Origin: Campylobacterota bacterium
GTDB taxonomy: Bacteria; Campylobacterota; Campylobacteria; Campylobacterales; Sulfurovaceae
Assembly: GCA_003252535.1 (NCBI GenBank)
Contig: QKDN01000037.1
Span: 1 to 32,113 of the forward strand
Direction: 5' to 3'
DNA length: 32,113 bases
The position numbers and the translations under genes are program-made. Each line of letters opens with the position of its first letter. Position 1 is the first letter of the stretch. This document shows positions 27,595-29,235 of the stretch, in pieces. The notes under the pieces were generated by a model. The model did not search any database. It had not been told where the DNA came from and worked only from the letters and a program-made list of their open reading frames with translations.

Positions 27595-28608
27595 TTGCTC
27601 TTCAGGAAACCGGGTACCGTCACCTTCATGATGCGAAGACTGCTGGTAATGTGTATCGTTGCCTCTGCACTTTTCTACCTGCTTCTCTTTGAATGGGGCG
27701 AGAAGAATCCCTGGCTCGTGTTCGGTTTTTTCGTCCTGATACTGGCAGTGTTCCTGGCGATCGTCTACGACAATATCGTACAGATCAAACACCATCTCGA
27801 CAAGATCAATACCTACCTCGAGAGCGTCAAACACACGAAAGCCATTGCGGAGAGCAAGTACATCTCCAGGGAGTTCGACCTCATAGACCGTAATCTCAGC
27901 AAGGTGATCAGGAGCGCAAAAAAACGCGAAGATGACAAACAGAAGTACAATGCCAAGCTGAAACTCAAAAACCGCCAGAGAAGCGATATGCTCTCGGCCA
28001 TCGCCCATGAGTTCCGCAATCCTATCTCCGTGATCGTCGGCTATGCACAGACCCTCCAGGAAGACCATTCGATCACCACGCCGGTACGAAACAAATTCCT
28101 CACCCGTATCTACTCCAATGCCGAGAAGATCGAATCGCTCCTCGGGAGACTCATGCTGTGGAACAAGTTCGAAAGTGGTGAGACCAGGCTCAAACTGGCC
28201 GAGTTCGACCTCAAAAAACTGATCGGGGAGATCGTGTTCGATCTCGAGGAGAAATACAGGGAGAGAGAGATCATCGTCAAAGGAACCGGAAGAATCGTCA
28301 AAGCAGACAGGGAGCTCATCGGGATCGTGCTCAAAAACCTCATAGAGAACGGCTTGAAATATTCCGAGAAGCAGGTAGAGGTGGCGATCACACCGCAGGA
28401 GGTCATCATCCAGGATTACGGTGTGGGGATAGCCCTGGAGGACATCAACAAGGTCACCAAGAAATTCTACCGCTCCGGAGAGCACAGCTGGGACAATTCG
28501 ATGGGTCTGGGGCTCTCCATCGTCAAGACCATCCTCCAGCTTCACGGAAGCAACCTCGAACTCAACAGCCGTCTGGGGGTGGGTTCAAGGTTTGAATTTA
28601 AGATATAA
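27595..28608 (+). CDS. Orphan sensor histidine kinase
   Basis: 337 residues. Two membrane helices (about 15-33 and 40-58) with almost no periplasmic loop, a coiled-coil linker, HisKA with H138 in IAHEFRNPIS, and HATPase_c with the N box NLIEN (248-252), DYGVGI and GLGLSIVK. The short loop suggests it senses the membrane or a partner protein. No response regulator lies nearby. Start TTG at 27595 (GAGG 9 bases upstream) is preferred; an ATG at 27628 lacks a ribosome-binding site but cannot be excluded. It is followed by sixA. Confidence 0.9.
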   Translation: MLFRKPGTVTFMMRRLLVMCIVASALFYLLLFEWGEKNPWLVFGFFVLILAVFLAIVYDNIVQIKHHLDKINTYLESVKHTKAIAESKYISREFDLIDRNLSKVIRSAKKREDDKQKYNAKLKLKNRQRSDMLSAIAHEFRNPISVIVGYAQTLQEDHSITTPVRNKFLTRIYSNAEKIESLLGRLMLWNKFESGETRLKLAEFDLKKLIGEIVFDLEEKYREREIIVKGTGRIVKADRELIGIVLKNLIENGLKYSEKQVEVAITPQEVIIQDYGVGIALEDINKVTKKFYRSGEHSWDNSMGLGLSIVKTILQLHGSNLELNSRLGVGSRFEFKI

Positions 28609-28652: not shown

Positions 28653-28661
28653 TGCTATACT
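28653..28661 (+). promoter_or_regulatory. Extended -10 promoter for sixA
   Basis: TGCTATACT is a good extended -10. Start near 28668, leaving about 25 bases to the ATC initiation site, with an AAAAAGGAG ribosome-binding site in between. Confidence 0.55.
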
Positions 28662-28692
28662 AAGCCCGCTAAACGCAGAAAAAGGAGCTAAC

Positions 28693-29235
28693 ATCAAGAC
28701 GCTATATCTAATCAGACATGCCAAGTCCAAATGGAACAACGATAAACTCAGTGATTTTGAACGTGATCTGAGCAGACGGGGGACAAAAGACCTGGCTATG
28801 ATGAGCTCCTATATGGCTCTGCGCCAGATCAAACCTGACCTGATCCTCTCCAGCCTTTCGCTCAGGGCTCAGATAACTGCCGACACGATCGCCAGAAAGG
28901 TCGATTACAAAGGTCGTATCCACTATATGGAAGAGCTTTATATGGTCAGACCTGAAACCCTGATCAACGTCATCAGCCTCCAGGAAAATGTCCATGACTC
29001 GATCTTCATCGTCGGGCACAACCCCGAACTCACCGAGCTGAGCAATATGCTCCTTGAAGCCTCCATATCCAAACTCCCCTCACTCGGGATCGTAGGGATC
29101 AAACTTGAGATCGACAACTGGGGTGATATCGTCAGGGAGAGAAGGGGCGAGATAGACCTCTTCGTCTATCCGAAACAGTTCAGATACTATATGCCGCGCC
29201 AGATCAGGGAAACGCTCAAAGAAGACCAGAACTGA
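28693..29235 (+). CDS. sixA: Phosphohistidine phosphatase SixA, apparent ATC start
   Basis: 180 residues of histidine phosphatase (RHG) fold. The N-terminus [M]KTLYLIRHAKS carries R8 and the nucleophile H9; R58 lies in SSLSLRAQ and H109 in FIVGHNPEL, so the active site is complete. Family members begin MKTLYLIRHAKS, and here the first codon of that motif is ATC, preceded by an excellent AAAAAGGAG 5 bases away. The frame upstream has no ATG, GTG or TTG back to the kinase stop. The first ATG (28798) would delete the catalytic histidine. Possible explanations are a real ATC start, a mutation or a sequencing error. SixA proteins remove phosphate from phosphohistidine in phosphorelays or PTS proteins. 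Confidence 0.82.
   Translation: MKTLYLIRHAKSKWNNDKLSDFERDLSRRGTKDLAMMSSYMALRQIKPDLILSSLSLRAQITADTIARKVDYKGRIHYMEELYMVRPETLINVISLQENVHDSIFIVGHNPELTELSNMLLEASISKLPSLGIVGIKLEIDNWGDIVRERRGEIDLFVYPKQFRYYMPRQIRETLKEDQN

Follow-up and report, generated by a model that had tools for sequence, protein, structure and literature searches.

The window, which here means the whole analysed stretch of 32,113 nt, carries a sixA-like gene for a protein of 180 aa, preceded on the same strand by a histidine kinase gene. The features of the locus are as follows.

27595..28608, + strand: histidine kinase (HisKA + HATPase_c), 84 nt upstream of sixA; start as listed mechanically
28606..28608, + strand: TAA stop of this kinase, the nearest in-frame stop before sixA
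28653..28661, + strand: candidate extended -10 element TGCTATACT, a sixA promoter predicted from sequence only, without a -35 match
28682..28687, + strand: Shine-Dalgarno (SD) sequence AAGGAG, 5 nt (ctaac) ahead of ATC; conserved in 46/46 homologues with ATC, ATT or ATA (ATH) at codon 1
28692..28692, + strand: pyrimidine (C) at -1; a pyrimidine in 46/46 ATH homologues
28693..29235, + strand: sixA-like gene, 180 aa, His_Phos_1 (PF00300)
28693..28695, + strand: ATC start codon, read from the sequence; ATC/ATT/ATA kept in 46/52 clade members
28714..28719, + strand: codons R8 and H9, RHG-type active-site motif; matches the aligned RHAK of the solved structure 2rfl
28798..28803, + strand: ATGATG, codons 36-37, first in-frame canonical start, past the active site; rejected as start

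The product matches the histidine phosphatase fold family PF00300 with 31.6 bits (cut-off 21.7). Its best NCBIfam match is the SixA equivalog TIGR00249, but with 57.7 bits this is under the cut-off of 74.5; as the nearest solved relative, 2rfl, is annotated as SixA, the protein is named SixA-like here. The catalytic RH(G/A) motif near the N-terminus and the second His (VGHNP) are both present, and the protein is a putative phosphohistidine phosphatase. The predicted structure has a pLDDT of 35. In E. coli, SixA targets the phosphohistidines of ArcB and NPr (PMC6282199).

The sixA frame in the window is open from 28609, and no in-frame ATG, GTG or TTG occurs between 28609 and 28797; the first is the ATG at 28798, after the RHAKS motif. 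The codons that follow the ATC at 28693 are AAG ACG CTA TAT CTA ATC AGA CAT, so that the SixA N-terminus KTLYLIRHAKS begins directly after it. ATC is a very rare start codon. A preliminary description had proposed a start there, on the grounds that R8 and H9 lie between a near-perfect ribosome-binding site and the first ATG, that no canonical codon is found in frame upstream, and that the family N-terminus fits an ATC start. All of this holds in the window (TAA at 28606-28608, active-site codons at 28714-28719, ATG at 28798). In relatives the family match begins exactly at codon 1-2, and an SD match of at least 4 bases precedes all 46 ATH genes, with 6-7 bases in 27 of them.

A tree was computed from 104 SixA proteins, with codon 1 left out of the alignment. 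A supported clade (100/98) holds 52 of the 104 genes, nearly all from Sulfurovaceae, the family of the window, and they start with ATC (29), ATT (14), ATA (3), ATG (5), or GTG (1). ATH is found in none of the 52 genes outside the clade, which start with ATG (49) or TTG (3). A second SixA copy of the same genomes falls outside the clade; this copy and SixA elsewhere in the order start with ATG, rarely with GTG or TTG. In a search of 150 family genomes, the orthologues aligned from residue 1. The named relatives are Sulfurovum and related Epsilonproteobacteria, with one labelled Sulfurimonas. The preliminary description had looked to ATG at this site in relatives as evidence against its proposal; with ATH in 46 of the 52 clade members, the ATC start of sixA is strongly supported.

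The DNA pattern of ATH at codon 1 plus the RH(A/G)K motif was present in 43 of 175 family genomes and, among 397 genomes sampled from the class, did not occur outside the family. Of 399 genomes sampled from the order, one genome outside the family, G401, had it too. This genome, assigned to another family, carries an ATC-start sixA with the same neighbours (L105, G401:C122), either by lateral transfer or as a misbinned contig.

The distribution on the tree is compatible with a single origin of ATH followed by about four losses. The lineages that reverted to ATG or GTG are L008, L016, L017, and L038 with L107/L108, and three lineages turned to ATA. Total branch length in the clade amounts to 16.6 amino-acid changes per site, which means that the ATH state was maintained over long evolution; the reversions in about four lineages mean that AUH is not indispensable. 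A sequencing or assembly error at 28695, with G as the true base, could be suspected because the assembly is a draft in 77 contigs. Against it, ATC, ATT or ATA stands at this codon in 46 distinct genes, several of them on single-contig assemblies (G020, G042, and G121), and the SixA paralogue in the same genome has ATG. For the clade an error is thereby refuted, and for the window it has practically no probability left. The odd start of sixA is probably a long-conserved brake on the amount of enzyme and not a sequencing error.

Use of another start is very unlikely. The candidates are the ATG at 28798, a weaker upstream codon, ribosomes reading through the kinase stop at 28606, or a frameshift from an overlapping ORF. 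Initiation at 28798 was rejected, as it would delete R8 and H9; the first downstream ATG lies at variable codons (23-96), past R8/H9 in every ATH gene. Some upstream in-frame ATG, GTG or TTG does occur in 13 of the 46 ATH genes, which leaves room for a different start in a few species. However, an in-frame stop lies within 100 nt upstream in 42 ATH genes, and 30 of these have no canonical codon between that stop and ATH, including 16 in which the stop lies at most six codons upstream; the SD is placed for ATH in every case. The stop of the window kinase is in frame with sixA, and reading through it would yield a kinase-phosphatase fusion in the genome of the window; this frame relation is not conserved in relatives. 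An overlapping out-of-frame ORF or a frameshift was rejected because no such ORF is common to the ATH genes and the upstream gene differs among species.

General laxity of start selection was rejected as well. In 415 kb (14% of the genome), sixA alone among 238 ORFs combines an SD and ATH without a canonical start within five codons, while the other ATH cases there have a canonical codon within that distance; furthermore, the 129-aa gene directly upstream of sixA in relatives, and co-oriented with it, starts with ATG in 35 of 36 loci and with GTG in one. The genome has two initiator tRNAs, both with anticodon CAU and a GGG/CCC stem, and an altered initiator was rejected since both are ordinary as judged on sequence, where modifications are invisible. 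An Rfam scan of the leader gave only two chance-level matches, and the folding energy around the start is the same in ATH genes as in ATG relatives; a riboswitch or structured leader was rejected on these results.

An SD is present in 46/46 ATH genes versus 25/52 outside genes (p = 8e-10), and the third base of the start (C 29, T 14, A 3) departs from the internal Ile codons of the same genes, which are ATC 30%, ATT 36%, and ATA 35% (p = 5e-6), p-values which ignore shared descent. ATC thus accounts for 63% of codon 1 versus 30% internally, and ATA for 7% versus 35%; the bias to C/T also holds against the 4-fold usage of the genes. SD spacing is 4-6 in 43 of the 46. The base at -1 is a pyrimidine in all 46 ATH genes (C in 19) versus 35 of the 52 outside, and on the tree it made 10 changes between C and T, never to a purine. 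Among the six non-ATH clade members, four have a purine at -1, and four have no matching SD. The missing SD fits selection for a constant low output, on these few events. The test on tree-independent pairs for -1 and SD had just three usable pairs, too few to prove anything. The pyrimidine at -1 perhaps aids initiation at AUH. For chloroplasts, a U at -1 was proposed to extend codon-anticodon pairing (as cited in PMC4587860), an idea that leaves C at -1 unexplained.

These signals also bear on a near-neutral codon, in which AUH drifted in once under relaxed expression demand and the third bases wander freely. The roughly four reversions to ATG/GTG, about as many as the lineages turned to ATA, would agree with such drift. 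It is nonetheless an improbable explanation, as the third base is strongly biased to C/T relative to Ile and 4-fold usage within the genes themselves, position -1 is limited to pyrimidine, and the SD is kept in all ATH members and mostly lost in ATG members.

The usual gene order in relatives (L097, L105, L028, L080, and others) is a PAS-domain gene, the 129-aa gene, sixA, and often a histidine-kinase-type gene. These genes form a conserved operon and a nameless signalling module. The window differs from this order by its HisKA/HATPase_c kinase upstream of sixA. Across the clade, the 129-aa protein shares 67-95% identity with the reference; it had no Pfam match, and a PDB search gave no useful match. 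A guess of a roadblock fold for it was unsupported, the predicted structure having a pLDDT of 43. ATH is kept in sixA genes with differing neighbours, the upstream gene varying between species, and operon position was therefore rejected as the driver of the start codon. The window sixA may also have a promoter of its own at the extended -10-like element.

In the reading we prefer, and hold with good confidence, sixA of the clade is translated from a near-cognate AUH codon, and weak initiation keeps the phosphatase scarce relative to kinases. The ordinary initiator tRNA (CAU, formyl-Met) would pair with two of the three AUH bases, and a strong, tightly spaced Shine-Dalgarno helix would set fMet-tRNA on AUC, or on AUU/AUA in relatives. 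Near-cognate starts generally give low expression. Inefficient initiation at AUH would yield a low output of the phosphohistidine phosphatase, which would then be scarce versus the histidine kinase and sensor genes alongside. We infer that the codon is decoded as fMet, that output is low, and that low output is selected for. As SixA acts on phosphohistidines, a weak start is most simply explained as a means to keep the phosphatase scarce near kinases. More speculatively, IF3 or the state of the initiation machinery might adjust the AUH output. In a narrower and rather unlikely proposal, the whole clade would use YAUY, for the most part AUC, together with a strong SD as a start devoted to this purpose and sensitive to fidelity factors. 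It would set the phosphatase:kinase ratio in the operon of PAS, 129-aa, SixA, and histidine-kinase genes, and the pyrimidine at -1 would belong to the initiation signal.

Several known starts resemble this one. In Streptomyces, IF3 represses the non-canonical start of sigR and holds SigR below its partner (PMC5472188). That gene, like sixA, has a clade-wide non-canonical start and a strong RBS, and its product is a regulator kept scarce versus a co-transcribed partner, to which sixA is likened; unlike sixA, its codon is GTC and not AUH, the role of IF3 was shown experimentally, and it codes for a sigma factor, not a phosphatase. In Staphylococcus, the conserved AUH starts of ccpN (AUA) and cvfC1 (AUU) with extended SD attenuate both genes (PMC13009471); these resemble sixA in codon class and SD, but are other genes of another phylum, mapped by Ribo-Ret. 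E. coli pcnB has GAGGTGTACT-ATT, which almost matches the GAGGTGTACC-ATT found in several relatives, with SD and T at -1, but codes for an unrelated protein, poly(A) polymerase. In Borrelia pncA/BBE22 (AUU), the annotated start strips a catalytic N-terminal residue, as an ATG start would in sixA; this is a single species and another enzyme, proven by biochemistry and structure (PMC13398362).

E. coli infC, coding for IF3, likewise combines a conserved near-cognate AUH (AUU), an SD, and T at -1, but is a different gene, autoregulated by its own product. The infC gene starts with AUU/AUC in E. coli or Streptomyces. In the family of the window, its start codon is TTG (AGAAGGaaaaaTTG and similar) at every one of the 30 loci read (L137-L166), so the AUU loop of E. 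coli infC is absent here. This missing autoregulation speaks against an IF3-dependent switch of the sigR or infC kind that would couple the phosphatase level to initiation-factor status, while conserved AUH with a strong SD is the build of known IF3-discriminated starts (PMC5472188; PMC13009471; E. coli infC and pcnB). By analogy, such a switch is conceivable with rather low probability. IF3 sensitivity of the sixA start, which the preliminary description had called conceivable together with low expression, is itself plausible by the same analogy, and the documented repression of the sigR GTC start in Streptomyces keeps IF3 control of sixA conceivable.

An AUH start that persists across many species is, to our knowledge, rare among bacterial genes other than infC. 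The sixA start shares several features with conserved non-canonical starts, namely a near-cognate codon conserved across species, a strong SD at good spacing, and the lack of a better start codon. It would join infC, pcnB, sigR, and ccpN as a conserved non-canonical start, with a conservation that appears unusually deep. The AUH start spans several genera in dozens of related sulfur-oxidising bacteria, and the ATG-started paralogue in the same genomes is a built-in control. The gene is a natural test of why evolution retains a weak start codon alongside a strong SD, and it also allows the phosphatase-to-kinase ratio to be tested as the reason. Gene callers limited to ATG/GTG/TTG would lose the active site of sixA or misplace its start.

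The ATG-started Sulfurovaceae SixA paralogue (L113-L115, L117-L130) often has an extended -10 TTGCTATAATA without an SD. This element lies a few bases ahead of ATG, in a region about 15-30 nt before it, as if the mRNA were leaderless or nearly so.

In three sixA genes of one genus (L106, L107, and L108), the RH motif has lost its catalytic His (RD, RS, and KN) with the rest kept. They adjoin the same operon, and these copies may be pseudo-enzymes. In L027 (G123:C11:266208-266737), a frameshift splits sixA after about 35 codons; genome G123 is nearly complete, and the frameshift is either a real mutation or a sequencing error.
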